Positions 14,294 through 35,372 of a DNA stretch of 52,093 bases are shown one piece after another. Both the position numbers and the translations under genes were made by a program. The stretch comes from Prevotella sp. (GTDB taxonomy: Bacteria > Bacteroidota > Bacteroidia > Bacteroidales > Bacteroidaceae). The stretch covers positions 1 to 52,093 of the forward strand of contig JAFZAH010000033.1 of the NCBI GenBank assembly GCA_017548275.1. Reading direction: 5' to 3'. Positions within the stretch are counted from its first letter, which is position 1. The number at the start of each line of letters is the position of its first letter. The notes below the pieces were generated by a model. It ran no database searches and was not told the origin of the DNA. It saw only the letters and a list, made by a program, of their open reading frames with translations.

Positions 14294-14425
14294 ATATGGA
14301 GTTTTTTGCATTGTCAAAACGTCAAGGTTGGAAAATTAAAGAGTATCTTTCAGAAATCCGCCAATAGAGAACAATTGTCTGAACTACGGAACTACTGAAC
14401 TCCTGAACTACCAAATTCCTCAGAC
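14294..14425. repeat. Low-complexity gap between the pullulanase and SusA-like genes
   Basis: On the plus strand 14376-14420 consists of imperfect copies of 'TGAACTACNGAACTAC/TCCTGAACTAC'. No promoter consensus is evident and the two genes are co-directional, so this is an intercistronic spacer of the operon. Confidence 0.55.
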
Positions 14426-16357: not shown

Positions 16358-16363
16358 ATCCTT

Positions 16364-18775
<2,412 letters not shown>

Positions 18776-21497: not shown

Positions 21498-21573
21498 CAA
21501 AATTACTATCTTTTTAATTAAGGTGGTTAAAAAAAATACACCTTTTGCGCAATTATAAATGCAAACGATTGCA
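21498..21573 (-). promoter_or_regulatory. malQ promoter with LacI-type operator
   Basis: On the minus strand the -7 box TAATTTTG covers 21505 to 21498. The position of the -33 box (21526-21529) reads TAAC, not TTTG. The palindrome TGCAAACGATTGCA lies at 21560-21573, 55 bp upstream of the -7 box. It is the exact reverse complement of the operator between lacI and susC. A perfect 13-bp inverted repeat (21489-21501 and 21583-21595, TTTGACCAATAAT in each outward sense) encloses operator and -7 box. A weak -33 and an upstream operator suggest activator dependence. Confidence 0.75.
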
Positions 21574-21632
21574 CAAAACCCGTTTGACCAATAATCCCAA
21601 GAAGGTTAATCAGCCCTGTTAACCCAATAACC

Positions 21633-22205
21633 TTATGGCGCTAATGCTATTTTGAGAGAAATGCCTTGGGGAGCGACGGAGAAGGAATAGCGGCCATGCT
21701 CACCGGTGATTTTATCGCCTATCCAATAACCCAGTTCGGTGGCGGCGATGCCGATGGCAGCGCCCGCAGCCGCATCATACCAGTGGTGGCGGTTACGGCA
21801 TACGCGGTCGATGGCGGTAAAAGTCGCCACGCCATATCCCGCCACGCTGATCCACGGGCTGACATGATGATATTCCTTGTGTAAGGCATGTGCACCGGCA
21901 AAGGCGATGGCGCAATGACCAGAGGGGAAACTGCGGTCGTCCGTACCGTCAGGCCGCCGCTCATGGATGCTGTGCTTGAGCACCCATGCGGTGCCAGCGG
22001 TGAAGACATACGACGCGGCGGCATTGACAGCCAGCCGTTTCCATGAACTCTCACTGTCCACGCCCGTAGCCTTAAGCACGAAAAGCGACGCATACGGCAC
22101 ATACTGCAACACATCGTCGGGTCCGTCGCCATGGTATTTTTTGTCTTGGGCAGACAAGCTCAAAGACAAAAAAAATGCAACTATGAAGAAGATGACTCTT
22201 TTCAT
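21633..22205 (-). CDS. PAP2-family phosphatase, exported or membrane-associated
   Basis: The 190-residue protein has an N-terminal signal or anchor ('MKRVIFFIVAFFLSLSLSAQ') and all three PAP2 phosphatase motifs: K77...R84-P85 ('KHSIHERRP'), P94-S-G-H97 ('PSGH') and R134-x5-H140-x3-D144 ('RVCRNRHHWYD'). The family dephosphorylates lipid phosphates such as undecaprenyl pyrophosphate, phosphatidate or lipid A phosphates at the periplasmic face. Substrate cannot be told from sequence. It has its own consensus promoter and lies between the sugar transporter and malQ on the same strand, but nothing suggests a role in starch use. Confidence 0.88.
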   Translation of the reverse strand: MKRVIFFIVAFFLSLSLSAQDKKYHGDGPDDVLQYVPYASLFVLKATGVDSESSWKRLAVNAAASYVFTAGTAWVLKHSIHERRPDGTDDRSFPSGHCAIAFAGAHALHKEYHHVSPWISVAGYGVATFTAIDRVCRNRHHWYDAAAGAAIGIAATELGYWIGDKITGEHGRYSFSVAPQGISLKIALAP

Positions 22206-22210
22206 AGTTG

Positions 22211-22241
22211 CAAAGATATGATTTTTTGTGGAAAAGACAAG
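22211..22241 (-). promoter_or_regulatory. Promoter of the PAP2 gene
   Basis: On the minus strand the -7 box TATCTTTG occupies 22218 to 22211 and CTTG occupies 22241 to 22238, with 19 bp between them. The start codon follows at 22205, so the leader is almost absent (only a few nt after the -7 box) unless translation starts slightly downstream. Confidence 0.65.
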
Positions 22242-22262
22242 ATTTTTCGCAGGATATTATCA

Positions 22263-23582
22263 TTATTTATCCTTGATGATGGTCACGGCCGCAGCACCAC
22301 AGACAAGCAGCACACCCGCCACTATCATCATATTGCTCTGCACACTGCCCACGAGACTGAGGATGACACCACCCAGAAGCGCGGCAACAATCTGCGGCAC
22401 GCAGATGGTACCGTTGAAGAGGCCCAGATATGCGCCCATGTGGCCGTATCCCTGCAAAGCGTTGGTAACGAAGGTAAAAGGCATGGCGAGCATGGCGGCC
22501 CAAGCGCAACCGATGAGCAGGAACGGGATAAACTGTACATACTGGTCATGGACGAAAGGCACCAGGGCGAAACCGATACCGCCGAGCACCAGACTGAGCG
22601 AGTAGGCCATCTTGGTGTTCTTGAACCGCGGCAAGATGGTGGCCCATATCACGCTGCCCACAGCCTGTACGGCAAAGAGGATGCCCACCCAGTTGCCTGC
22701 CGCCTGATAGGCTGCAGACTCGGTAGCCTCTTTCACCGACATGTCAACGCCCCAGCAAACAGATGCGATGGAACCGTTGGTGTAGGTCCACATATACATG
22801 AACGCCGCCCAGCAGAAGAACTGCACCAGACCCACTTTCCAGAAGGTGGAGGGGGCGTTTTTGAGCAGGGTAAACCAGTTGGCGCTGTCTTCCTTCTCCT
22901 CTTTGTTTTGCACACCGTTATACATCGCATATTCCTGCGGATTCCACTCCTTCACCTTGATGGTCGTGTAGATGACACAGAGGATAAGGATGGCGGCACC
23001 CACATAGAACGACCAGATGACGGAGTCGGGCACAACACCTTCAGCAGCAACGTTTTGCACACCCAGCCATGTGAAGACGAAAGGGAAAACAAAACCGACC
23101 ACACTACCTGCATTGCAGAGGAAACTCTGGATGGAATAGGCTTTTGCCTTCTGTTTCTCATTGACCATGTCGCCCACGAGCATCTTAAACGGTTGCATCG
23201 CCATATTGATGCTGGTGTCGAGGAACATCAGGGCAATCAACCCGAAAATCATCGCCGCGCCCACAGCGAGGCCGAACGACCCAGAATTGGGCAACAGACA
23301 CATCACCAGAACGGCTACCAGCGCGCCCACAAACAGATAAGGTATGCGCCGGCCGAAACGTGTCCAGGTTCGGTCTGAGAGCGTGCCTACCACCGGTTGC
23401 ACAAGGATGCCCATCAACGGCGGAAGAATCCAGAAATAACTCAGGTTGTGCGGGTCAGCGCCCAATGTGGAAAAAATACGTGAAATGTTCGCACTCTGCA
23501 AGGCGTACGCGATTTGCACACCGAAGAATCCGAAACTCAGGTTCCACAGTTTCCAAAAGGAAAGATCAGGTTTTGTTTTCAT
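22263..23582 (-). CDS. MFS sugar transporter (maltose/maltodextrin-type)
   Basis: This 439-residue inner-membrane protein has about twelve hydrophobic segments and the MFS loop 2-3 motif 'GTLSDRTWTRFGRRIPYL' (near residues 63-80). It resembles the SLC45/GPH-like MFS transporters that accompany starch loci in Bacteroidetes. It would move maltose or maltodextrins from the periplasm to the cytoplasm, where MalQ acts. I start it at the ATG at 23582, which opens the typical 'MKTKPDLSFWKLWNLSFGFFGVQ' N-terminus; the open frame to 23684 is repeat sequence. It follows lacI on the same strand after a 256-nt repeat-filled gap and may be expressed from the lacI promoter. Confidence 0.9.
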   Translation of the reverse strand: MKTKPDLSFWKLWNLSFGFFGVQIAYALQSANISRIFSTLGADPHNLSYFWILPPLMGILVQPVVGTLSDRTWTRFGRRIPYLFVGALVAVLVMCLLPNSGSFGLAVGAAMIFGLIALMFLDTSINMAMQPFKMLVGDMVNEKQKAKAYSIQSFLCNAGSVVGFVFPFVFTWLGVQNVAAEGVVPDSVIWSFYVGAAILILCVIYTTIKVKEWNPQEYAMYNGVQNKEEKEDSANWFTLLKNAPSTFWKVGLVQFFCWAAFMYMWTYTNGSIASVCWGVDMSVKEATESAAYQAAGNWVGILFAVQAVGSVIWATILPRFKNTKMAYSLSLVLGGIGFALVPFVHDQYVQFIPFLLIGCAWAAMLAMPFTFVTNALQGYGHMGAYLGLFNGTICVPQIVAALLGGVILSLVGSVQSNMMIVAGVLLVCGAAAVTIIKDK

Positions 23583-23838
23583 ATGTTTTATGGTTGAGAG
23601 TTCTTTTCTGGGGGGGGGAAGGGGTGGAGAAAGAAAGGAGTGAAGAAGTGAAGGAGTGGAGGAGTGAAGACAATACTGCCCCATAAGTGGACTATCTACT
23701 ATTTAGGAGTTTAGGAGTGAAGGAGTGAAGACAATACTGCTCCATTAACGGGCTATCTACTCCCCTCGCCCTTTGGAGAGGGGTTGGGGGTGAGGCTTTT
23801 TGGAGAGGGGCTGGGGGTGAGGCCGGGGGTGAGGTTTC
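23583..23838. repeat. Composite intergenic repeat between lacI and the MFS gene
   Basis: Reading plus strand: a G/A-rich minisatellite of 'GGAGTGAAG' type (23625-23670); two near-identical 40-bp units (23661-23700 and 23722-23761, containing GAAGACAATACTGC and CTATCTACT); then a REP-like hairpin CCCCTCGCC...GGAGAGGGG with GGGGGTGAGG (23762-23795) and two truncated copies of its right part (23801-23834). An inverted copy of the whole arrangement lies at 40735-40903. In transcript sense the hairpin comes directly after the lacI stop codon. No gene is seen. Confidence 0.85.
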
Positions 23839-24864
23839 CTACCTCGTGCTTCCCCGGATGATGAGGCGGGTGCGGACGACGCGCTTCTCCACTTTTTCGA
23901 GCGGGATAGTGCCCTCCACTTTTCCGATGAGAATATTGGCGGCCTCCTCGCCCACAACATGCCCGCGCTGCTCGACAGTGGTGAGCATGGGGTCGCATGC
24001 CACTGCCCGCTGACCGTTGGTGAATCCGCACACCGACACATCGTCGGGCACATGCAGTCCCATGCGCTTGGCGGTGTACATGATGCCGATGGCTGTATCG
24101 TCGTTGACAGCGAAGAACGCGTCGGGACGGTCTTCCATGCGCAACAGTTCAGGGGTGATAATCTCAGCATCAGCACGGTTGTCACAATAGCGCACATAAC
24201 GGTCGTCGGGTTTCAATCCGCTTTTGAGCAATGCGTCGCGGTATCCGTTATAGCGGTTTTTCGAAATCTCGAGTTTCATCGACGCACCATAGAAAGCGAT
24301 ACGTTTACAACCCGTATCGATGAGGTGCTTCACGGCGTTGTAGGCACCCTGATAGTCATCGACCACCACACGGCTGACATCCACACCCGTACAGATGCGG
24401 TCATAGAACACCAGTGGCACACCATTGTCAATCAATGTCTGGAAATGGTCGTACTGATTGGTGTCCTTCGCCTGTGAGACGATGATGCCGCACACCTTGT
24501 TCTCGTAAAACGACTGGCAGATGGCCACCTCGCGCTGATATTGCTCATTGCTTTGCGCCACCATCAGGCGGTATCCGTGGGTGGACGCCTCCTGCTCGAT
24601 GCCGCTGAGGATGGACGAGAAATAGAAATGCGTGAATTGAGGGATGATGACACCGATGATGTGCAACGGTTTGACCCGTGTATTGCGCAACGATTCGGCA
24701 ATCATGTTAGGAATAAAATTATGTTCGCGCGCGTACGCCTTGATAGCCTCTCGTCTTTCTGCACTGATACGGGGACTGTCTTTCAGCGCACGTGAGACGG
24801 TAGCGACCGACACCCCAAGTGCCTGCGCTATGTCTTTCATTGTGATAGGTACGCTGTTATTCAT
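23839..24864 (-). CDS. LacI-family transcriptional regulator of the starch locus
   Basis: The 341-residue protein has a LacI helix-turn-helix at residues 9-30 ('MKDIAQALGVSVATVSRALK'), a hinge region around 'NMIAESLRN' and a periplasmic-binding-protein-like effector domain (about 63-335, 'HIIGVIIPQFTHFYFSSILSGIE' to 'TVEQRGHVVGEEAANIL'). It is divergent from susC and shares an operator with it. A palindrome of typical LacI/GalR form (TGCAANCGNTTGCA) is found upstream of lacI itself, susC, malQ and the amylase gene, so this protein is the likely regulator of all four units. Fixed upstream spacing suggests it activates transcription. The effector is probably a maltooligosaccharide. This contrasts with Bacteroides sus, which is controlled by the unrelated SusR. 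Confidence 0.92.
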   Translation of the reverse strand: MNNSVPITMKDIAQALGVSVATVSRALKDSPRISAERREAIKAYAREHNFIPNMIAESLRNTRVKPLHIIGVIIPQFTHFYFSSILSGIEQEASTHGYRLMVAQSNEQYQREVAICQSFYENKVCGIIVSQAKDTNQYDHFQTLIDNGVPLVFYDRICTGVDVSRVVVDDYQGAYNAVKHLIDTGCKRIAFYGASMKLEISKNRYNGYRDALLKSGLKPDDRYVRYCDNRADAEIITPELLRMEDRPDAFFAVNDDTAIGIMYTAKRMGLHVPDDVSVCGFTNGQRAVACDPMLTTVEQRGHVVGEEAANILIGKVEGTIPLEKVEKRVVRTRLIIRGSTR

Positions 24865-24916
24865 AGGTTTGACAGATTTTTAGACGTTTCACTTGTCAAA
24901 AAACATTTTGACTGTG

Positions 24917-25056
24917 CAAATATATATAAAAGGTGTGTTCGCTGTTTTTCCAATCATCTACTTTATGCGGTTTTCATTGTGCAATCGTTTGCACATATAT
25001 AGGTGTATTTTTTTGTCTTAAAAATATACAACGAATGTGATTGTAACTTATCTTTG
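24917..25056. promoter_or_regulatory. Divergent lacI/susC promoters sharing one operator
   Basis: The operator TGCAATCGTTTGCA is at 24980-24993 and extends to a 16-bp palindrome at 24979-24994 with one mismatch. To the right, the susC -7 box TATCTTTG is at 25049-25056, 56 bp away. To the left, the lacI -7 box (minus strand TATATTTG) is at 24924 to 24917, also exactly 56 bp away. Neither promoter has TTTG at the -33 position (25025-25028 reads TATA; minus 24948-24945 reads AAAA). A 7-bp inverted repeat TTTGACA...TGTCAAA (24868-24900) lies in the lacI leader. The symmetry suggests one protein activating both directions. Confidence 0.8.
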
Positions 25057-25139
25057 CATAATGAAACTGCGATAATTGCAACCTAAAGAAGCAAAACTAT
25101 TAAACTTTAATTCATAAATTTATTAACTTAATAACTAAA

Positions 25140-28100
25140 ATGATGAAGCAGGCAAAAATCAGAATTCCAATCAGGATTCTGGCCCTTTTCATGGGTCTGT
25201 TCCTATCAATGGGAGCCTTTGCACAGCAGATTACCGTGCAAGGCCATGTGGTAGATGCAAGCGGAGAGCCTGTCATCGGTGCTACCGTACGCGTGGCGGG
25301 TACGTCCACGGGTGCGATGACCGACTTTGACGGTAACTTCACGCTGAATGCCAACCAGGGAGCCACACTTGAGGTGTCGTACATCGGCTACCAGACAGTG
25401 ACGGTATCAGCCGCCCCCGACGTTGTTATTACGATGCACGAGGACGCTGAGATGCTCAATGAAGTAGTGGTCATCGGTTACGGTGCTGTGAAGAAGAGCG
25501 ACCTGACCGGTGCGGTGACCGCCCTGAAGCCCGATGCCAAGAACAAGGGTGTTGTGGTGAACCCCCAAGACATGATTGCCGGTAAGATTGCCGGTGTGAG
25601 CGTTATCAGCAATGACGGTACCCCGGGTGGCGGTTCACAAATCCGCATCCGTGGCGGCTCGTCACTGAACGCAAGCAATGATCCTCTGATTGTGATTGAC
25701 GGAATGATTATGGACAACAACGGTGTGAAAGGTCTTTCCAACCCGCTGGCCATGGTCAACCCACAGGACATTGAGTCATTCAACGTATTGAAAGACGCTT
25801 CCGCCACCGCCATCTATGGTAGCCGGGGTTCTAACGGTGTCATCATTATCACAACGAAGAAAGGCCACGCCGGTCAGAAACCGACCGTGTCGTATGCGGG
25901 TAGCGTGACCTTGAGTATGAAGAACAAGACGCTCGACGTGATGGACGGCGACCAATACCGCCAGTTCATCGCCAACATCGCAGGCACTGACAGCAAGGCT
26001 TACAGCGCACTGGGTACCGCCAACACCGATTGGCAAGACCTGATTTACCAAAATGCGCTGAGCCATGACCACAACCTGACCGTCTCAGGTTCCACAAGTT
26101 TCCTTCCCTATCGTCTATCCGTTGGTTTCACAGACCAGGAAGGTATCCTCAAGACCTCAGACTTCCAGCGTGTGACTGCCGCTTTGAACCTGAGCCCGTC
26201 GTTCTTCGACAACCACCTGACAATGAACCTCAACGCCAAGGGCATGTACGCTAAGACACAGTATGCCGACGGCGAGGCAGTAGGTAGCGCTTTCCGTATG
26301 GATCCCACACAAGACCCCTACAGTTACACATCACAGTATCACAGGGATTATTTCGGCGCAGACCTTGACCGCACATTGCAGAATTTCGGCGGTTACTTTG
26401 AGTGGCCTACCGGCGGTGCCTATCCCGGCGAGACCGCTTGGCCTTACACTTGGAACAACCTGGCCACGAAGAACCCGATTGCCATCTTGAACGAGCGCAG
26501 CGAGATTGCTCACAGCCGTTCATTCATCGGCAGCGCCGACTTCGACTATAAGATTCACGGTTTCGAGGACCTCCGCCTCCACCTGACCTTGGCTTTGGAT
26601 TTGTCAAAAGGCCGTCAGCACCGCGATGCTACACCCGCCTCTCCGCAGTTCATCTACTACGGTAGCCACGGTTCGGAAGTCATCACAAAGCGTAACACCC
26701 AGTTGAGTGCCTACGCACAATATTATAAGGACTTTGACGAGAAGCACCACTTCGACATCATGGGCGGTTATGAGTACAGCCGCTACTGGCGCTCGTCACA
26801 CAGCGACTTCATCGGCTACTATGCTCCAACCAACACGTTGTATCCCGGTCAGGAGAACGACCATACTCCTTATTCCTTCCGCACAGAAAACATTCTGGTG
26901 TCATTCTTCGGACGTGCCAACTACACCCTGATGGACCGCTACATCTTCACAGCAACTGTCCGTCATGACGGTTCGTCACGTTTCAAGGACCACTGGTCAA
27001 CATTCCCCTCATTCGCTTTCGCATGGAAAATCAGCGACGAGAACAAATGGCGTGACCTGACATGGTTATCCGACCTGAAACTCCGTCTCGGTTGGGGTAT
27101 GACCGGTCAGCAGGATTTCAGCAGCGACTACGGATACATCCCCACCTATTCTATCAGCCAGGGTGTGGGCAGCGAGTATAACCTCGTAGGCGACGGCGTC
27201 CGTTACCGCCCGAACAACCGTGACCTGGTGACCTGGGAGACCACGACCACCTACAACATCGGTTTCGACTACGGTTTCTGGAACAACCGTTTGACGGGTT
27301 CTATCGACTGGTACTACCGCAAGACGACCGACCTGCTGAACTACGCTCCGCTGCCTCCGTTCTACGGATTCCGCAACCAGGGCTGGCAGAACATCGGTTC
27401 TCTGCGCAACACAGGTGTTGAGTTGTCCGTTGACTGGAAAGCCGTTCAAGTCAAAGACTTCTTCTGGAACATCAACTACAACTTCACCTATAACAACAAT
27501 AAGGTTTTGGCTCTCTCGGGCAGCGGCGACGCAGTGCCCACAGGTCCGACCATCGGTACCGACAAGCGCTTGATGTACCACCAGGTGGGTCTCCCCATCA
27601 GTTCGTTCTGGGTATATCAGCAGGTTTATGACCAGAATGGCAAAGCCATCGAGAACATGGTTGTTGACCGCGACGGCAACGGTGTCATCACCGACGAGGA
27701 CCGCTACTTCTACAAGAGCCCTGCCGCTCCCATCCTCATGGGTCTTGCCTCACGCATGGAGTACAAGAACTGGGACCTCGGCTTCTCACTCCGCGCAAAC
27801 ATCGGCAACTACCTGTTCAACAACATCGAGTCTGGTCAGGCCAATGTCAACAAGAACGAGGTATGGTCATCGAGCAACTACATGGCCAACCGTCCTGTAT
27901 GGGTGGTTGAGGACAACTGGCAGACCTACAACCTGACGGCTCTGCTCTCCGACCGCTATGTGCACAACGCTTCCTTCCTGAAGATGGACAACGTGACCTT
28001 GGGTTACAGTTTCGCCGACCTGTTCGGCAACGGCTCATGGCGCGGCATCAGCGGCCGTGTGTATGCTACCTGCAACAACGTGTTCACCTGGACCAAATAC

Positions 28101-28193
28101 GACGGTCTTGACCCGGAGGTCGCCAGCGGTTACGACAATGAGATGTATCCGCGTCCTATCTCTTTCATTTTCGGACTGAACCTCAATTTCTAA
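25140..28193 (+). CDS. susC: SusC/RagA-family TonB-dependent outer-membrane transporter
   Basis: This 1017-residue outer-membrane protein imports starch oligosaccharides with energy from TonB. After a signal peptide (ends near 'GAFAQ', residue 29) comes a carboxypeptidase-regulatory-like beta domain (about 32-105, 'VQGHVVDASGEPVIGATV'), a TonB-box-like 'NEVVVIGYG' (about 107-115), the plug domain (about 120-230) and a long beta-barrel ending in 'ISFIFGLNLNF' with the required terminal aromatic. It is the first gene of susCDEF and is followed after 24 nt by susD. Its promoter has the shared LacI-type operator and no -33 box, so expression probably depends on the divergent regulator. Confidence 0.97.
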   Translation: MMKQAKIRIPIRILALFMGLFLSMGAFAQQITVQGHVVDASGEPVIGATVRVAGTSTGAMTDFDGNFTLNANQGATLEVSYIGYQTVTVSAAPDVVITMHEDAEMLNEVVVIGYGAVKKSDLTGAVTALKPDAKNKGVVVNPQDMIAGKIAGVSVISNDGTPGGGSQIRIRGGSSLNASNDPLIVIDGMIMDNNGVKGLSNPLAMVNPQDIESFNVLKDASATAIYGSRGSNGVIIITTKKGHAGQKPTVSYAGSVTLSMKNKTLDVMDGDQYRQFIANIAGTDSKAYSALGTANTDWQDLIYQNALSHDHNLTVSGSTSFLPYRLSVGFTDQEGILKTSDFQRVTAALNLSPSFFDNHLTMNLNAKGMYAKTQYADGEAVGSAFRMDPTQDPYSYTSQYHRDYFGADLDRTLQNFGGYFEWPTGGAYPGETAWPYTWNNLATKNPIAILNERSEIAHSRSFIGSADFDYKIHGFEDLRLHLTLALDLSKGRQHRDATPASPQFIYYGSHGSEVITKRNTQLSAYAQYYKDFDEKHHFDIMGGYEYSRYWRSSHSDFIGYYAPTNTLYPGQENDHTPYSFRTENILVSFFGRANYTLMDRYIFTATVRHDGSSRFKDHWSTFPSFAFAWKISDENKWRDLTWLSDLKLRLGWGMTGQQDFSSDYGYIPTYSISQGVGSEYNLVGDGVRYRPNNRDLVTWETTTTYNIGFDYGFWNNRLTGSIDWYYRKTTDLLNYAPLPPFYGFRNQGWQNIGSLRNTGVELSVDWKAVQVKDFFWNINYNFTYNNNKVLALSGSGDAVPTGPTIGTDKRLMYHQVGLPISSFWVYQQVYDQNGKAIENMVVDRDGNGVITDEDRYFYKSPAAPILMGLASRMEYKNWDLGFSLRANIGNYLFNNIESGQANVNKNEVWSSSNYMANRPVWVVEDNWQTYNLTALLSDRYVHNASFLKMDNVTLGYSFADLFGNGSWRGISGRVYATCNNVFTWTKYDGLDPEVASGYDNEMYPRPISFIFGLNLNF

Positions 28194-28217
28194 TCAACAA
28201 CATCAAGATATAAAGTC

Positions 28218-29834
28218 ATGAAAAGATATATTAAAATGATTCTTCCCGCAGCGGCATTAGCCCTGACTTTGGGAATGACTTCATGCACAGGCGATTTGGA
28301 CGTGACCCCCATCGACCCTAACCTCGACTTGTCGTTCACGCCCGAAGGCCTCTACAATAAATGCTTTGGCAACCTGGCCACCGCCGGTAACACTGGTGGT
28401 GACGGCGAGGTGGACATCGACGGTCTTGACGGTGGTACCACCGGTTTCGTCCGTCAGATGTGGAACTCGAACGAGTTGCCTACCGACGAGGCTATCTGCC
28501 ACTGGGGCGATGCAGGTATCAAGGAATTCTGCTATGCCACATGGGATCCCTCACACCCGATGCTGAACGGTTACTTCAACCGTATCGTCACCGGCATCTC
28601 TTACTGCAACCAGTATCTGGAGGTCGCCGCCGACCACGATGCCCAGATGACCGCCGAAATCCGCTGGCTGCGCGCTTTCGAGTATTATCTGCTGATGGAT
28701 GCCTTTGGCAACATCCCCTTCTCCGACAAAGTCGGTGCATTGGAATACAAGACCCGCCAGGAAGCATACGATTGGCTTGAGGGCGAACTGTTGGAGATTG
28801 AGTCACAGTTGGCTCCTGCACAGGCCAAAAAGTCGAGCGACGCCAACTACGGCCGTCCCGACCAGGCTGCCGACTGGATGCTTCTGGCACGCCTCTATCT
28901 GAATGCTGAGGTTTATACCGGCACACCGCAATGGGCTAAAGCAGCCGAATATGCGAAGAAAGTCATCGACTCTCCGTATAAACTCAACACCACAGGCAGC
29001 AGCCTCGGCTACAGCGCTTACCAGATGCTCTTCATGGGCGACAACGGCGAGACCAACGCTGCCTACGAGGCCATCTTCCCCATCCTGCAAGACGGTAAGA
29101 AAACCACATCTTGGGGTTGCTCCATGTATCTCATGGGTTCCACTTTCGATGACAACATGATTGAGGGTCTGGGTGGCGAGACTGCCCCCAACGGCACCGA
29201 CCAGAAATGGGGCGGCAACCGTACACGTCCCGACCTGATTGCCAAGTTCTTCCCGAAGGGCAACGCTCCTCAGGGTCTGAACTCACACGAGATGGCAGAA
29301 GAAGCCAACGACGACCGCGCATTGTTCAACAGTCAGGGCCGCTCGCTCAACAGCGAGAACGGTTACGATGAAGACTTCACACACGGCTACGCTTGCGCCA
29401 AGTTCACCAACTTCTATAGCGACGGCAGCCAGGGTCACGACGGAACCTTCCCCGACATGGACTTCTTCATGATGCGTCTTGCTGAGGCTTATCTGACATA
29501 CGCAGAGGCCACAGCCCGCCAAGGTGGCGGTTCGACCACATCTGAAGGCACACAATATATCAACGAATTGCGCAGCCGCGCCCATGCCTCGACCCAACCC
29601 GGCTATTCTCTCGACGACATTCTTGATGAGTGGAGCCGCGAGTTCTACTTCGAGGGCCGTCGCCGTGTTGACCTCAACCGTTTCGGCAAGTTCACAGGAA
29701 CCAGTTACATGTGGCAATGGAAAGGCGGTGCCTACTCAGGCCGTAACATCGACAGTTACAGAAGCATCTATCCGCTGCCCAATACAGCCATTACCGGTCC
29801 TATTGTGCAGAATCCTGGATATCCCACGAAATAA
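28218..29834 (+). CDS. susD: SusD/RagB-family starch-binding outer-membrane lipoprotein
   Basis: The 538-residue lipoprotein caps the SusC barrel and binds starch at the cell surface. The signal sequence ends with the lipobox 'GMTSC' (Cys23), followed by an acidic stretch ('TGDLD') fitting the Bacteroidetes lipoprotein export signal. The helical TPR-like scaffold of the family is recognisable ('AEIRWLRAFEYYLLMDAFGNIPF', 'DWMLLARLYLNAEVYTG'), and the C-terminal SusD domain contains 'ILDEWSREFYFEGRRRVDLNRFGKF', a family hallmark. It sits 24 nt after susC and 9 nt before susE. Confidence 0.97.
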   Translation: MKRYIKMILPAAALALTLGMTSCTGDLDVTPIDPNLDLSFTPEGLYNKCFGNLATAGNTGGDGEVDIDGLDGGTTGFVRQMWNSNELPTDEAICHWGDAGIKEFCYATWDPSHPMLNGYFNRIVTGISYCNQYLEVAADHDAQMTAEIRWLRAFEYYLLMDAFGNIPFSDKVGALEYKTRQEAYDWLEGELLEIESQLAPAQAKKSSDANYGRPDQAADWMLLARLYLNAEVYTGTPQWAKAAEYAKKVIDSPYKLNTTGSSLGYSAYQMLFMGDNGETNAAYEAIFPILQDGKKTTSWGCSMYLMGSTFDDNMIEGLGGETAPNGTDQKWGGNRTRPDLIAKFFPKGNAPQGLNSHEMAEEANDDRALFNSQGRSLNSENGYDEDFTHGYACAKFTNFYSDGSQGHDGTFPDMDFFMMRLAEAYLTYAEATARQGGGSTTSEGTQYINELRSRAHASTQPGYSLDDILDEWSREFYFEGRRRVDLNRFGKFTGTSYMWQWKGGAYSGRNIDSYRSIYPLPNTAITGPIVQNPGYPTK

Positions 29835-29843
29835 TATAATCTA

Positions 29844-31049
29844 ATGAATACAGCAATGAAAAAGATATTTCAGTCGGCACTGATGCTTCTATGCGGCATC
29901 TGCCTGTTCACGGCTTGTGACGACGACAACGATTCCAACCCGACCTATGTGTCGCCAGGAAGTTTTGTACTGAACGAGCCGTCGTATGCCAGTTCAAATA
30001 TCGACTTGGCGCATTCTGACCAACTCAACTTCAGTTGGCAATACCCGCAATTCATCACGGAGAACGGTGTCTTGCCTCTGGAAGTGCAATACCAACTTCA
30101 GTTCTCGAAGAACGGTAATTTCAACACCGAATTCGACGCCACGAAAGAGGTGAACGAGCAGGAAGCAGACTTCTTCACTTACAGTTCCGTGTTTGGAGCA
30201 GACCTGCAAGGCACTGTCAATGCTGATGATTTTGCCCGCAGTTTGCAGCAAATCGCCAAATATGAGGAAGGCAACGTGCCTGCCGTCCAACAGGTGTGGG
30301 TTCGCGCCATCGCCGAGAACGCCAAGGAGACCCTCTATTCAAACGTGGTTACATTCAATGTGGTGCCATTCTACTATGAGTTGCGTCCGGCAGAACCCGT
30401 ATTGTGGTATCTGGTAGGTGCAACCATCGCTGACGGCGGTTGGGGCAACTCTGCCGACAAGATTGGCACCAGCCTCATCCCGATGTTCACCAAGGCAGGC
30501 GAGTCTTATGACAAGGCTACCGGAACCGGTACTATCACTTACACCGGCTACTTCGCCAAGGACAAGGGCTTCAAGGCCGTTCAGATTCCTGGCAACTGGG
30601 ATATCCAGTTCAACTTCACCAAGTTGGGCGACGCTTATCCCGCAGGCGAGTTCTATGGTGACAAGGACGACAACATCGTGGCCACCAATGGCGGTTACTT
30701 CACGGTGGAAATCAACACTGCCACTGAGAAGATGACCATCACTGCTGCCGAAGAACCCAAGGTATATAGCCAGATGGCTCTGCCCGGTGGTTACAATGAG
30801 TGGAATACCGGTGCCCTGATGGATCCCGTGGAGACCTTCGACGGTGCTGTGAACCATATGTGGCGCTACAACCTCAGCCTCGACGCCGACACCGAATTCA
30901 AATTCACCGACGGCGGCACATGGTGGGGCGGCGACGGATTCCCGTACGGATATGCTTCGACAACCGGCGGAAACCTCAAAGCCACAGCCGGCAACTATCT
31001 GGTGCTCTTCAACGACATCACCGGTGCGTTTACGTTTATTGCAAAATAA
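29844..31049 (+). CDS. susE: SusE-like starch-binding outer-membrane lipoprotein
   Basis: The 401-residue lipoprotein has a signal ending in 'LFTAC' (Cys25) followed by DDDND, a strong surface-export signal of the Bacteroidetes type. An N-terminal fibronectin-like SusE domain (about 35-175, 'FVLNEPSYASSNIDLAH...') precedes carbohydrate-binding modules: 'WYLVGATIADGGWGNSADKIG' (near 190) and a second from about 300 ('MALPGGYNEWNTGALM'). It holds starch near the SusCD complex without catalysis. Translation may start at 29844 or at the in-frame ATG 29856, which gives the usual 'MKKIF' signal start; both are possible. Confidence 0.9.
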   Translation: MNTAMKKIFQSALMLLCGICLFTACDDDNDSNPTYVSPGSFVLNEPSYASSNIDLAHSDQLNFSWQYPQFITENGVLPLEVQYQLQFSKNGNFNTEFDATKEVNEQEADFFTYSSVFGADLQGTVNADDFARSLQQIAKYEEGNVPAVQQVWVRAIAENAKETLYSNVVTFNVVPFYYELRPAEPVLWYLVGATIADGGWGNSADKIGTSLIPMFTKAGESYDKATGTGTITYTGYFAKDKGFKAVQIPGNWDIQFNFTKLGDAYPAGEFYGDKDDNIVATNGGYFTVEINTATEKMTITAAEEPKVYSQMALPGGYNEWNTGALMDPVETFDGAVNHMWRYNLSLDADTEFKFTDGGTWWGGDGFPYGYASTTGGNLKATAGNYLVLFNDITGAFTFIAK

Positions 31050-31118
31050 AGAGGCAACAGGGCGGCAACCCCGCCGCCCTACCCTCCTTACATTCAACAA
31101 TCATAACAAGAAAAGAAT

Positions 31119-32825
31119 ATGAAAAAGATATTTTATTCATTAGGCATTGCATTGCTGATGATCGGCTGTACGGAAGACTATACCGACTGGGCCAACCCGA
31201 ATATGGGTGGTGCAGAGGACGGCAAGAGCATCGCGCTGGCTGTGTCGGAGGCTCCCGCCATCGACTTTGCCGAGATTGATGTCACCGACGACACTACCGT
31301 GCAACTGTTCGTTCCTTCGCTGAGCGCCTCTGACGACAATGAGACCACCTATGAGGTGACACTCTGGAACGCAGACAAGACCATGAGCAAGACCATTACT
31401 GCCGATGCTAACGGTTATGTTTCGGCCAGTGAACTGAAAGAGATTGTCGAGTCGCTTTATGGCAAGCGTCCCGAACCCCGTCAGATACCACTCGACGTGG
31501 CCGGCTTTGTGAAAATCAACGGCCAAAGCCTGAAAGCCGTGGGCAATACCACCGCCACCGTGACACCGAAGGCTCCCATCATCTACGAGGAGTATTATGT
31601 GGTGGGCAACGTGAACGGATGGAACATCAACGGCAAGGAATATGTGCTGAGCAACGGCGGCGCTGACCCCTACGAGAACCCTGTGTTCACCGGTCGCATC
31701 CCCGTTCCCAGTGGAGGCGGAAACGTTGAGTTCAAAGTCAACCCGAAGGGTGCTCCAGAGGGCTCTTGGGACTACTGTCTGACTCCTGACGTTGACGGCC
31801 AGGAAGGCAAATTCTCGACCAACAACGCCGGTCCGGGCAACCTCACCATCCCCGAGGATCCCAATGCCATAGGCTTCGACCTGACATTCAACATGATGGA
31901 CCAGGAGTGGAGTTACAAACCCGTCTATGCACTGGAGTCAACCTATTACATCGTAGGTACACCGCAAGGCTGGAATCCGAGCGACACAAGCCTGCCCGTG
32001 AAGAACAGCGGCGCATCACCTGCTGACGACCCCGTCTATTCGATTATCCTTGACGCTACCGGCAGCAACATCGAGTTCAAACTCTGTCCGGAGTCTGGCG
32101 TCGGTGGCTGGGACAGCGACTTCACAGCCGATCCTAATGGCGTCGAAGGCAAGTTGGCAGCCAACAATGCCGGCGGCAATATCGTCATCAATCATGTGGA
32201 CGGCGCCGTGGCATACCATGTATGGTTCAACCTGCAGGATTTGGTATGGGGCTACAACCCGATTATGGAAGGCGGCGTGTTCTACGAGATTGGCAACGAG
32301 AGCGGATGGGGCACATCACACCCGATGATGCTCAACGGTGACTCCTATATCGGATTCTACTTCCTCAACGGCGAGTTCAAGTTCAAACCCAATGCCAACA
32401 ACTGGGACAACGACCTCGAGTGGATTGAAGACGGTAAACTCGACGTGAACGGTATTGGCAATGTGCCTGCTCCTGAGACCGGGTTCTACAAGATTGTGCT
32501 CAACACCACAGCCATGACCTATAACCTGATCAAGATCAACACCGTGGGTGTGATTGGCGATGCCACAGCCGACGGTTGGGGCAGCGACCAGGATATGTCG
32601 TGGAACGCAGAAGGCGGATTCTGGCACATCGAGAACCTGCAGTTGAACGACGGTACCATCAAGTTCCGTGGCAATGACAACTGGGACGGCGACCTCGACC
32701 TGGGCGGCAATCCCAACAGTCTGACCATCGGCGGCGCCAACATCCCCGTGGAGGCCGGTACCTACGACATCAAACTCTTCGCTTCATTCAGCGGTGGCAG
32801 CCACGCCATCATTACGAAGAAGTAA
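31119..32825 (+). CDS. susF: SusF-like multi-CBM starch-binding outer-membrane lipoprotein
   Basis: The 568-residue lipoprotein has a short signal ending in 'LLMIGC' (Cys17) and then acidic residues. After an N-terminal beta domain come repeated starch-binding modules, each opening with a similar strand: 'YYVVGNVNGWNIN' (about 162), 'YYIVGTPQGWNPSD' (about 275), 'FYEIGNESGWGTS' (about 385) and 'VGVIGDATADGWGSD' (about 477). The Trp in each 'GW' is the expected sugar-stacking residue. This makes it slightly longer than Bacteroides SusF and capable of multivalent binding. It ends the susCDEF operon and is followed by a strong terminator. Confidence 0.9.
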   Translation: MKKIFYSLGIALLMIGCTEDYTDWANPNMGGAEDGKSIALAVSEAPAIDFAEIDVTDDTTVQLFVPSLSASDDNETTYEVTLWNADKTMSKTITADANGYVSASELKEIVESLYGKRPEPRQIPLDVAGFVKINGQSLKAVGNTTATVTPKAPIIYEEYYVVGNVNGWNINGKEYVLSNGGADPYENPVFTGRIPVPSGGGNVEFKVNPKGAPEGSWDYCLTPDVDGQEGKFSTNNAGPGNLTIPEDPNAIGFDLTFNMMDQEWSYKPVYALESTYYIVGTPQGWNPSDTSLPVKNSGASPADDPVYSIILDATGSNIEFKLCPESGVGGWDSDFTADPNGVEGKLAANNAGGNIVINHVDGAVAYHVWFNLQDLVWGYNPIMEGGVFYEIGNESGWGTSHPMMLNGDSYIGFYFLNGEFKFKPNANNWDNDLEWIEDGKLDVNGIGNVPAPETGFYKIVLNTTAMTYNLIKINTVGVIGDATADGWGSDQDMSWNAEGGFWHIENLQLNDGTIKFRGNDNWDGDLDLGGNPNSLTIGGANIPVEAGTYDIKLFASFSGGSHAIITKK

Positions 32826-32828
32826 GAT

Positions 32829-32853
32829 TCACCCTGACCTTCCCAAGGGAGGG
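32829..32853. repeat. Degenerate C-rich REP-like hairpin after susF
   Basis: CACCCTGACCTTCCCAAGGG followed by AGGG resembles, in transcript sense, the CCTCACCCCCAACCCCTCTCC...GAGGGG element found after lacI, nadK and malQ. It lies within 5 nt of the susF stop codon, the same location relative to the gene end as the other copies. Confidence 0.45.
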
Positions 32854-32874
32854 AATGGAAGATAAAAATGATTG

Positions 32875-32915
32875 ACAAAGATGACCGCTCGAACAGGGTG
32901 GTCATCTTTGTTTTT
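32875..32915 (+). terminator. Intrinsic terminator of the susCDEF operon
   Basis: ACAAAGATGACC (32875-32886) pairs perfectly with GGTCATCTTTGT (32900-32911), a 12-bp stem with a 13-nt loop followed by TTTT. This is the strongest rho-independent terminator in the window. Confidence 0.88.
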
Positions 32916-32920
32916 AATTT

Positions 32921-33217
32921 ATTGGTGTCCGGTAAAAAGCGGCCTGCAGGGCCAAACTGCACATAGCCCGGGGCAGCGCCCTGGGGATAGACGTTTGTGT
33001 AGCCTTCGCCCTGTAAGGGCAAAAGCATTGATTGTCAACTGCTTCTGCTCTTTCAGGGCGAAGATTTTCTTACAACGATTAACCCAAGGCGTTGCCTTGG
33101 GCTGTGTGCTCGTTGCCCCTTCGGGGCGAAGACAAGCCCACATCTGTAAAAATGCACGACTATGCTGGTGATTTTCCGCACTCTGAGAGATTCTGCACTT
33201 TTTTAGCGGACACCAAT
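32921..33217. mobile_element. MITE-like palindrome-rich element, complete copy
   Basis: The 297-bp element starts with ATTGGTGTCCG (32921-32931) and ends with the exact inverse CGGACACCAAT (33207-33217). Inside are several short palindromes of alternating form: GCCCGGGGCAGCGCCCTGGG, CGCCCTGTAAGGGC, CCCAAGGCGTTGCCTTGGG and GCCCCTTCGGGGC. No open frame of note is present. A second copy in inverse orientation lies at 47494-47699 and shares about 210 bp. No clear target-site duplication is visible, so mobility is inferred from termini and copy number. Confidence 0.65.
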
Positions 33218-33289
33218 ATTATTTATTACCAATTTGACCATCAACCATAAACTGGCTTTCCATGTACAAAGCGATGCCATCACACTTTG

Positions 33290-33366
33290 CGCAACCGATT
33301 GCACAACGGTACAAATAATTGAGAGGGCCGTAAAGGTACAACCTATCATATTTTTTACTATCTTCG
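33290..33366 (+). promoter_or_regulatory. Alpha-amylase promoter with LacI-type operator
   Basis: CGCAACCGATTGCA at 33290-33303 contains the perfect core GCAANCGNTTGC of the operators at 21560 and 24980. The -7 box TATCTTCG (33359-33366, one mismatch from TAnnTTTG) begins 56 bp after the operator, the same spacing as in susC and lacI. The -33 position (33335-33338) reads GGTA, so no -33 box exists. The 72-nt stretch between the MITE-like element and the operator shows nothing else. Confidence 0.72.
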
Positions 33367-33389: not shown

Positions 33390-35372
33390 ATGATGAAGAA
33401 ATTTTACACAACAATGCTTGCATTGGCCGTGCCCCTGCTGATGATGGCACAGGGTTGGCCGAGTCAATATCAGGGTGTGATGTTGCAAGGATTCTACTGG
33501 GATTCCTTCGACGACACCCAATGGACGAAACTGGAGTCACAGGCCGACGAACTGGCTCAGTACTTCACCCTCGTATGGATACCTCAGAGTGGTAAGTGCA
33601 ATGACAATGGCGGGAACTCGATGGGTTATGACGACTATTACTGGTTCGACCAGAACTCCACGTTCGGCACTGAGGCCCAACTGCGCTCGCTCATCACCAC
33701 TTTCAAGGCCAAAGGCATCGGCACCATCGCCGATGTGGTCATTAATCACCGCAATACCAGCGGTTGGGTCACCTTCCCCAAAGAGACGTATAAAGGCGTG
33801 ACCTATCAGTTGCTCCCCTCCGACATCTGCGCCGACGACGATAACGGCAAGACCAAGGCCTGGGCAGAAGCAAACGGATTCAGCCTGAGCACCAACAACG
33901 ACACGGGCGAAGGATGGGACGGCATGCGCGATTTGGACCATAAGAGTAAAAATGTACAGGACAATGTGAAGGTCTATCTCGACTTCCTGCTCAACGACCT
34001 GGGTTACACCGGATTCCGCTACGACATGGTAAAGGGCTTCGCCGCTACTTATCTTGGTACGTACAACAAAGACGCCAATCCGACCTTCAGCGTGGGCGAA
34101 TATTGGGACGGAAACAAGTCCACTGTGGAGAATTGGATTAACAGCACAAAGGTAAACGGCACCGTCTACAGCGCCGCCTTCGACTTCCCCTTCCGCTACA
34201 CCGTGCGCGACGCCATCAACAACAAAGACTGGAGCAAACTTAGTAACACCTCAGTGATGGCCGATGCCGGTTACCGTCGCTATGCCGTGACCTTCATCGA
34301 GAACCATGACACTGAAAAACGCTCGAACTCGCCACAAGACCCCATCGTGCGCGACACCATCGCTGCCAACGCCTATCTGCTGGCCATGCCCGGCACGCCC
34401 TGCGTATTCTTCAAGCACTGGAAGGATTGTAAAAACGACATCGCCAACATGATTAACGTGCGCCAGTTTGCAGGTATCCACAACGAGAGCGGTTACACCA
34501 GTTACGCCAGCACAAACACCCACTATGCCGTTGTCTCAAAAGGTGCCAACTGCGACTTGCTTTGTGTGGTGGGCGACGTGACGAAATACACTCCTACTGA
34601 CCGTTGGATTCTCGTAACTGAGGGTTATCACTACCGCTACTACCTGCCCAATTCGGCCAACACGGTATGGATAAGCCTGGCATCGGGCACCTACAACGGT
34701 GAACAACAGGCGACACTGACCGCCGTGACACGCGACGACGCGCAAATCGTATATACCACCGACGGCACCGACCCCACAGCATCGAGCACCAAGGTGGCAT
34801 CGGGCTCAAAAGTGACCATCCCCGTGGGCACAACCACACTGAAGGCAGGATTGCTTATCGGCGGGGCAGTGTCGGGCATCCAAAGCCGCACTTACAATGT
34901 CATCGACTTCAAACCCTACAACATCGACATCTACGTGAACACCGACGAGGTGGGATGGAGCAGCGTTAACTTCTGGACATGGGGTGGCGACGGATCGCAC
35001 AGTCCGAAGAACAGCGATTGGCCGGGCGACAAGGTGAGCACCACCGTGAGTGCCGACGGCAAGAACTGGTATAAGAACACCTACACCATCAATTCGCCCG
35101 AAGACTGTGTCAACTTCGTGTTCAGCACAGGCAGCGGTTCTCCCCAGACCGTTGATATCAACGAAATCAAAGCCACCACCTATTTCGAGATATCGACAGC
35201 CACAGAGGGCGGCAAAAACCTGGTGAATATTGTCAAGACTGGCATTGAGGAAATTCAGTATGCCAATGACACCCCGCGCGACGATGCCATCTACGACCTG
35301 CAAGGCCGCCGCGTCACCCATCCCACACGTGGCATCTACATCCAGGGAGGAAAGAAAATTATTTATTATTAA
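33390..35372 (+). CDS. Secreted GH13 alpha-amylase with C-terminal starch-binding domain
   Basis: This 660-residue endo-amylase probably starts starch attack outside the cell. It has a type I signal peptide (ends 'MMAQ', residue 21) and no lipobox, unlike SusG. Catalytic barrel: region I 'DVVINH' (115-120), nucleophile D212 in 'GFRYDMVKGF', acid/base E237 in 'SVGEYW', and D307 in 'FIENHDTEK'. After the barrel come a chitobiase-like beta domain (about 455-510, 'VYTTDGTDPTASS') and a CBM26-like starch-binding domain (about 515-605). The last 30 residues ('IYDLQGRRVTHPTRGIYIQG') resemble a sorting tail also seen on the GH53 enzyme. Either ATG, 33390 or 33393, could be the start. Confidence 0.93.
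   Translation: MMKKFYTTMLALAVPLLMMAQGWPSQYQGVMLQGFYWDSFDDTQWTKLESQADELAQYFTLVWIPQSGKCNDNGGNSMGYDDYYWFDQNSTFGTEAQLRSLITTFKAKGIGTIADVVINHRNTSGWVTFPKETYKGVTYQLLPSDICADDDNGKTKAWAEANGFSLSTNNDTGEGWDGMRDLDHKSKNVQDNVKVYLDFLLNDLGYTGFRYDMVKGFAATYLGTYNKDANPTFSVGEYWDGNKSTVENWINSTKVNGTVYSAAFDFPFRYTVRDAINNKDWSKLSNTSVMADAGYRRYAVTFIENHDTEKRSNSPQDPIVRDTIAANAYLLAMPGTPCVFFKHWKDCKNDIANMINVRQFAGIHNESGYTSYASTNTHYAVVSKGANCDLLCVVGDVTKYTPTDRWILVTEGYHYRYYLPNSANTVWISLASGTYNGEQQATLTAVTRDDAQIVYTTDGTDPTASSTKVASGSKVTIPVGTTTLKAGLLIGGAVSGIQSRTYNVIDFKPYNIDIYVNTDEVGWSSVNFWTWGGDGSHSPKNSDWPGDKVSTTVSADGKNWYKNTYTINSPEDCVNFVFSTGSGSPQTVDINEIKATTYFEISTATEGGKNLVNIVKTGIEEIQYANDTPRDDAIYDLQGRRVTHPTRGIYIQGGKKIIYY

Follow-up and report, generated by a model that had tools for sequence, protein, structure and literature searches.

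Starch locus and its operator sites

The analysed stretch (52,093 nucleotides; hereafter the window) is contig JAFZAH010000033.1 of a Prevotella sp. assembly, GCA_017548275.1, which is 3.22 Mb in size and 87% complete. As judged from Pfam domains and open reading frames (ORFs), a starch utilization region occupies 12.4-35.4 kb of the window, and a short palindrome, which is the subject of this study, stands upstream of several of its genes as a putative operator of a LacI-family regulator. On the minus strand, the region has the malQ gene (18776..21472) for a GH77 4-alpha-glucanotransferase with CBM20, followed on its 3′ side by the GH97, pullulanase-type GH13, and cyclomaltodextrinase-type GH13 genes (12407..18709), which are possibly on one transcript with malQ. 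The lacI gene (23839..24864) and an MFS transporter gene 3′ of lacI (22263..23684) are encoded on the same strand, and the region also has a PAP2 gene. On the plus strand, the susC, susD, susE-like, and susF-like genes (25140..32825) precede a gene for an alpha-amylase with CBM26 (33390..35372). The LacI protein of 341 amino acids has the two domains that define the LacI/GalR family, an N-terminal helix-turn-helix (HTH) domain (PF00356, 56 bits) and a C-terminal periplasmic-binding-protein-like sensor domain (PF13377, 112 bits), both above the Pfam cut-off.

It was found that the exact core GCAANCGNTTGC is present in the window only at 21561-21572, 24981-24992, and 33291-33302. It is palindromic with a central CG, as is typical of operators of the LacI/GalR family at the sequence level. 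The three cores are the centres of the malQ operator TGCAAACGATTGCA (21560..21573), the operator TGCAATCGTTTGCA common to lacI and susC (24980..24993), and the amylase operator CGCAACCGATTGCA (33290..33303), exactly where an original prediction on this DNA had placed the 14-mers. A plain excess of operator-like sequences was rejected as evidence; with two mismatches allowed, the window has 35 such sequences versus a shuffle mean of 30.9, which is the chance level. In the whole genome, there are 5 exact sites versus 1 for a reversed control pattern, and 143 versus 100 when one mismatch is allowed. The number of sites is modest, and the informative part is their position. The fourth exact site lies on another contig (C14:52353, locus L001), 5′ of a gene which is 43% identical to the window amylase. 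The fifth site (C49:81007) was set aside, as it falls within an ORF and lacks a -7 box.

The housekeeping sigma consensus is given as TAnnTTTG at -7 and TTTG at -33 in passages of a study (PMC7366714) which also describe the -33 element as not identifiable in Flavobacterium. I counted the bases between the edge of the 14-mer operator and the first T of TAnnTTTG. This gap is 55 bp for susC (TATCTTTG, 25049..25056, plus strand), 55 bp for lacI (TATATTTG, 24917..24924, minus strand), and 55 bp for the amylase gene (TATCTTCG, 33359..33366, plus strand, locus L004), whose box is one letter off the consensus. It is 54 bp both for malQ (TAATTTTG, 21498..21505, minus strand, locus L002) and for the second amylase-like gene in L001 (TATTTTTG). 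The original prediction had given 56, 56, 56, and 55 bp for the four promoters of the window; the constancy of the pattern stands, while each of those distances is one base wider than counted here.

Conservation of the spacing in the genus

Is this spacing common in related genomes? A search of 150 same-genus genomes (E <= 1e-60) yielded a LacI match in 132 of them. An orthologue with at least 61% identity is present in 120 of the 150 (hand count, own genome included), and the other matches are a paralogue at about 37-40% identity. Exact operator sites were searched for in 60 genomes and were listed for eight relatives, although single sites of other genomes were also seen. All 75 exact sites of the eight relatives were fetched, and the starch and lacI genes beside them were found by BLAST with the window proteins. 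In all 33 promoter directions toward susC, lacI, malQ, GH97, and amylase genes, a box lies at 54-56 bp from the operator. The box is the canonical TANNTTTG in 28 directions and a one-letter variant in five, while only seven relaxed matches were found at the other approximately 106 positions. Since the operator is upstream of the promoter in 33 of 33 directions, the position expected of an overlapping or downstream repressor site was not found in these directions. When the intergenic sites of the eight relatives and the own genome are combined, TANNTTTG is found 21 times at 54 bp, 15 times at 55 bp, and twice at 56 bp, and no more than twice at any other distance below 150 bp.

Several sites are outside the 33 directions. 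The sites flagged as coding have no box at 53-57 bp except for L078, a lacI/susC gap that owes its flag to a chance ORF and belongs to the 33. L138, another site flagged as coding, was excluded; a distant susC-like match lies at 732 bp from it. No starch gene was detected by BLAST with the window proteins at seven intergenic sites that have no box at 53-57 bp (L065, L067, L070, L083, L088, L089, and L091), nor at eight sites with a box at 54-56 bp (L071, L073, L092, L094, L100, L106, L111, and L131).

A larger genus-level set consists of 79 distinct lacI upstream regions from 84 loci, with duplicates dropped. The 84 loci are the 30 best LacI loci (closest relatives) and the loci at >=66% identity, assigned to the genus by similarity; one of them is named Muribaculaceae, and the outgroup loci and a fragment (L220) were excluded. 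The operator with at most one mismatch is present within 700 bp upstream of lacI in all 79 regions. A box was found at 53-57 bp in 73 of the 79 regions on the lacI side and in 72 of the 79 on the other side, which mostly faces susC. These five positions gave 73 versus 17 matches at the other 126 positions on the lacI side, and 72 versus 12 on the other side. The spacing is kept on both sides in Segatella paludivivens, Hoylesella oralis, H. marshii, Prevotella dentasini, P. falsenii, P. pallens, and Marseilla massiliensis. It had been stated beforehand that distances varying among orthologous loci would speak against the prediction; the distances held in both sets of counts.

The six misses on the lacI side are L177 and a group of five loci with the box at 48 bp (L200, L202, L203, L205, and L208), whose other side stays at 55 bp. 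The seven misses on the other side are L189 (52 bp), L035, L173, L177, L191, L196, and L197; in L197, a second, more distant operator lies at 55 bp from the other-side promoter. Two operators, one per promoter and each at 52-55 bp, are found beside lacI in L186, L189, L190, L193, and L197, all of which have a long gap, and in L320 and L330 of a second genus described below. The one-mismatch operators of L173, L201, and L176 are also at 54-55 bp.

The standard deviation (SD) of the operator-to--7 distance is 0.59 bp for susC (n = 83), 1.72 bp for lacI (n = 82, including the 48-bp group), 0.64 bp for malQ (n = 23 distinct promoters, all at 53-56 bp), and 0.47 bp for amylase genes (n = 9), while that of the -7-to-start distance is 29, 34, 5, and 10 bp, respectively. 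Only promoters with a box at 48 or 52-57 bp entered these sets, and the unconditional counts above are therefore more reliable than the SDs. Spacers of equal length have a mean identity of 37-45% across the gene sets (45% for susC promoters). The spacer length is conserved, and the spacer sequence is not.

Loss of the -33 element

As controls, 60 promoters were collected by the presence of TANNTTTGC upstream of an ORF without an operator; the DNA covered was the window together with 260 kb from the own genome and 140 kb from a relative. With a spacer of 18-21 bp, TTTG was found in 25 of 60 and TTG in 32 of 60 controls, versus 2 and 4, respectively, of 101 distinct operator promoters. The Fisher test for TTTG gave 8e-11, a value that overstates the certainty because the controls represent two genomes, whereas the operator promoters were drawn from many related genomes. 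In the genus-level, second-genus, and family f19 sets (the latter two are described below), TTTG at -33 was found in 1 of 142, 1 of 43, and 0 of 9 promoters. By gene, it was found in 0 of 82 lacI, 1 of 83 susC, and 3 of 23 malQ promoters. In the window, neither the susC nor the lacI promoter has TTTG at -33, and the tetramers TATA, AAAA, GGTA, and TAAC, which the original prediction had read at the -33 position of the four operator promoters, are indeed the letters there. Its statement that promoters elsewhere have TTTG or TTG is valid as a tendency but not in general, as the control counts show.

In place of the -33 element, the operator promoters of the genus have a AGTACAACGTA-like block at -24 to -14 from the -7 box. 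ACAA is located exactly at -21 in 26 of 101 operator promoters versus 0 of 60 controls, and at -23 to -20 in 22 of 82 lacI and 27 of 83 susC promoters. The window copy of this genus-conserved block is ACAACG (25028..25033, plus strand), just 3′ of the would-be -33 element of susC. Two roles were considered for the block, a second half-site and a general substitute for the -33 element. A general role was dropped because the block does not show up in the second genus; it is absent from the consensus of both the second genus and f19, where the operator spacing is the same.

Arrangement beyond the genus

Within the order, 96 of 294 genomes have a LacI match at E <= 1e-70. In the same family, a second genus, probably Bacteroides, has a LacI match in 43 of 80 genomes. 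Its 30 best loci gave 29 distinct regions, of which 27 have the operator within the same 700 bp. Among these 27 regions, 26 have a box at 53-57 bp toward lacI, and 18 have one on the other side. Of the nine sides that have no box, eight also yielded no susC match beside the operator.

The family f19 has LacI in 9 of 9 genomes and the operator upstream of lacI in 9 of 9 loci. The promoter on the side away from lacI is at 54-55 bp in all nine loci and has TTTG at -33 in none; susC was confirmed on this side in L223, L224, and L226. The lacI side is different. In six of the nine loci, lacI has a canonical -7 box only 17-18 bp from the operator, and the TTTG half of the operator stands at a spacer of 19-20 bp, that is, at the place of the lacI -33 box. 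In two of the remaining loci, TATATGTG was recognized by eye at 18 bp, while no clear element was seen in L312. An operator that contains the -33 box of lacI's own promoter is, at the level of the sequence, a repression geometry. Thus, the position of the single f19 operator appears suited to activating one gene while blocking the other, and the contrast between the two promoters is what would be expected of a site with both an activating and a repressing role.

In more distant families, the lacI-directed spacings scatter. For the promoters away from lacI, operators were found at 53-56 bp (20 cases), 65-67 bp (14 cases), and 77-81 bp (18 cases), with only 2 and 2 cases in between. Overlapping tandem operators in a 12-bp register, some of them degenerate, lie upstream of susC in L233, L236, L238, L239, L271, L284, L243, L289, and others. 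The comb of distances was dropped as proof of helical phasing because much of it stems from these tandem operators 12 bp apart. As a separate observation, an operator-like site lies 78-81 bp from a -7 box 5′ of an MFS gene, or of the region preceding an MFS gene, in L241, L244, L268, L269, L270, L271, L279, L284, L293, L295, and L307 of these other families.

Operator promoters without a recognizable gene

In five of the eight relatives (G045, G017, G024, G012, and G084), one operator has a box at 54-55 bp with no gene-like open frame 3′ of it on the strand (by eye). A terminator-like hairpin follows the box after 115-249 nt in four of these, while G024 has a strong hairpin after a shared motif. 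This motif, GTTTTTGTTGATTTA, is found 5′ of the hairpin in three of the five. Searching 149 genomes yielded 11 with the motif, namely the three source genomes and eight more. Among the eight additional loci, an exact operator with a box at 55 bp is combined with a hairpin in L351 and L353; a hairpin without an operator is present in L348 and L350, and four have neither. Rfam at the gathering threshold gave no match for the five small-RNA loci or L001, and seven candidates align poorly outside the 3′ motif and the hairpin. To judge from this arrangement, some operator promoters without a gene may drive LacI-controlled small RNAs, which are regarded here as candidates.

The candidate loci, each with a box at 54-55 bp followed by a stretch of 130-340 nt up to a terminator-like hairpin and with no recognizable gene, are L073/L345, L106/L346, L111/L347, L351, L353, L100, and L131. 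Five of these loci have GTTTTTGTTGATTTA before the hairpin, three of which had defined the motif. At L071:995, L094:995, and L044:1501, an exact core lies 56 bp from the box TAAATTTG, 5′ of a beta-lactamase gene which I take to be cfxA-like; this may be due to chance. L071 and L094 encode the same protein, and therefore the gene is probably a mobile copy.

Proposed mechanism and its alternatives

It is likely that this LacI-family protein is a position-locked, class-I-like activator of a starch and maltodextrin regulon; the sign of regulation, the binding, the ligand, and the polymerase contact are what I infer from the arrangement of sites. The activator reading of the original prediction gained support from the fixed spacing in relatives, the loss of the -33 element (TTTG in 2/101 versus 25/60), and the geometry of f19. 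A fixed upstream spacing, as expected of a class I activator, was found in the eight relatives and in the genus-level set, and a missing -33 element, the other mark of such activators, was found at most promoters, malQ (TTTG in 3/23) included. A centre about 62 bp upstream, a rigid spacing, and the absence of a -33 element are together the anatomy of class I activation.

In the proposed mechanism, a LacI dimer would sit on the palindrome TGCAANCGNTTGCA. The centre of this site lies about 62 bp 5′ of the -7 box, which would be about -73 from the transcription start according to the layout of Bacteroides promoters. The dimer would contact RNA polymerase from upstream in a class I manner, and this recruitment would compensate for the absent -33 element. 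The operator midway between lacI and susC may serve both divergent promoters. Since the two genes have one operator in common, the regulator would raise its own level, forming a positive loop in this genus. The sugar-bound LacI is probably the active form, which would result in induction by maltose or maltodextrin.

Several observations weigh against this activator model. The strongest is made by the exact malQ operators at L022:117, L023:137, L031:104, and L170:6396, which have no -7 box at the usual place. They lie 32-35 bp 5′ of the malQ ATG and at most 5 nt from the stop codon of the preceding MFS gene (by eye), and they are conserved despite the diverged surrounding sequence. An activator has no obvious use for such promoterless sites, while a roadblock repressor would have one. 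These four loci are outnumbered by the 23 distinct malQ promoters with a spacing of 53-56 bp. Some malQ promoters keep a -33 element (TTTG in 3/23 and TTG in 5/23 with an 18-21 bp spacer). The 48-bp spacing on the lacI side of L200, L202, L203, L205, and L208 corresponds to another helical face. In the second genus, 2 of the 29 regions have no operator, and 9 of the 27 with an operator lack a box on the non-lacI side. Furthermore, two Algoriphagus and two Cyclobacteriaceae loci, whose LacI is about 40% identical, have an exact operator and no box at 55 bp.

How, then, would a repressor account for the data? A sugar-free LacI may occupy the same upstream site and hold RNA polymerase inactive by contact until maltose releases it. 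GalR, a relative of LacI, acts in this way at galP1 from a site at about -60, repressing by polymerase contact from upstream, and this precedent also counts against the activator model. A fixed spacing alone cannot distinguish contact repression from contact activation. The malQ sites in L022, L023, L031, and L170 without a promoter at 54-56 bp fit a roadblock. Moreover, RbsR and MalR are well-populated groups of LacI-family sugar regulators which are called repressors in the passages of a regulon survey (PMC4052901). However, promoters without a -33 element (TTTG in 2/101 versus 25/60 controls) should be weak, so that a repressor would be superfluous. In f19, it is the repression-placed lacI promoter that has its -33 box in the operator (6/9), and the opposite promoter has none (0/9). 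Contact repression is therefore considered unlikely, though it is the most serious of the alternatives.

Two other explanations are still less probable. LacI may be a helper or an anti-activator, with the real activator binding to the AGTACAACGTA block at -24 to -14. This block does replace the -33 element in operator promoters of the genus and was unseen in the 60 controls, but it is not in the second-genus or f19 consensus despite the same operator spacing, and many operator promoters of the genus have no such block (ACAA in only 22/82 lacI and 27/83 susC promoters), which makes a separate activator improbable. Common descent or chance, by which the spacing would be inherited rather than selected, can appeal to the fact that all the loci are related. 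However, the spacers have diverged to a mean identity of 37-45%, the adjacent -7-to-start length has a wide range, and non-orthologous genes (malQ, GH97, amylases, susC, and lacI) have the same spacing; it would be very surprising if descent or chance were the whole explanation.

An upstream activator thus remains the preferred reading for the genus. The wider picture is an evenly balanced proposition. It would comprise a LacI starch activator across the Bacteroidales acting at 54-56 bp from -33-less promoters, tandem operators in a 12-bp register in several other families, an f19-type dual role (activation of susC combined with repression of lacI itself through an operator that includes the -33 box), and a small RNA in several Prevotella-type genomes.

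Comparison with known systems

The usual account of starch use in gut Bacteroidota rests on SusR and hybrid two-component systems. If the activator model is true, most of the sampled Prevotella-type genomes (120/150) and about half of the second genus (43/80) would have a cytoplasmic activator of the LacI family instead. The promoter rule (operator, 54-56 bp, and no -33 element) could then be used to find regulons from sequence and to design maltose-inducible promoters, and one operator that activates one gene and represses another would offer a natural case of dual control.

SusR of Bacteroides thetaiotaomicron resembles the present regulator in that, in the passages available on it, starch genes of the same pathway are activated on starch or maltose. 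However, SusR is a membrane protein with a periplasmic sensor, whereas this protein consists of a LacI HTH and sensor domain, an architecture that extends over the protein length in Pfam. Part of a review names SusR and MalR for B. thetaiotaomicron (PMC12632263). For the sus loci of B. fragilis and B. uniformis, excerpts of another study describe predicted LacI-type regulators together with MFS and GH65 genes and no SusR homolog (PMC11633381). In S. copri with its incomplete Sus, a susC-type gene is described in a passage as not upregulated even in a mixture with soluble starch (PMC11784079). The relevant passage of a Bacteroides regulon reconstruction lists KdgR, UxaR, UxmR, and UxuR as LacI regulators of monosaccharide pathways, with no maltose regulator among them (PMC3878776). 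The LacI regulon survey, as far as its passages go, treats Bacteroides as a single taxonomic group and includes the MalR maltose repressors of Firmicutes, which are likewise LacI-family proteins of maltodextrin genes (PMC4052901). These are named repressors, whereas the operator described here is upstream of the core promoter in 33 directions.

A literature search, mostly confined to openly accessible journals, listed no paper on activation of starch genes by a LacI protein in Bacteroidota. In B. fragilis, a maltose-dependent activator of the osu starch operon, named OsuR, was reportedly described in 2006. Should OsuR be the LacI-type protein, the sign of activation would already have an experimental precedent, and the new part would be the site, its fixed place, and its spread. 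The frequent operator form GCAAACGTTTGC is the core of the PurR box. The regulon of E. coli PurR is unrelated, and the likeness is confined to the operator.

CcpA of Firmicutes, a dual regulator of the LacI family, is among the closest parallels. CcpA chains are the top matches of this LacI protein among solved structures, and both systems have a LacI-type palindrome. CcpA can activate from sites upstream of the promoter, and it is a global regulator that responds to the phosphoprotein HPr-Ser-P. In contrast, the regulator described here would serve a starch regulon, with a nearly invariant spacing of 54-56 bp and with promoters of the Bacteroidota type.

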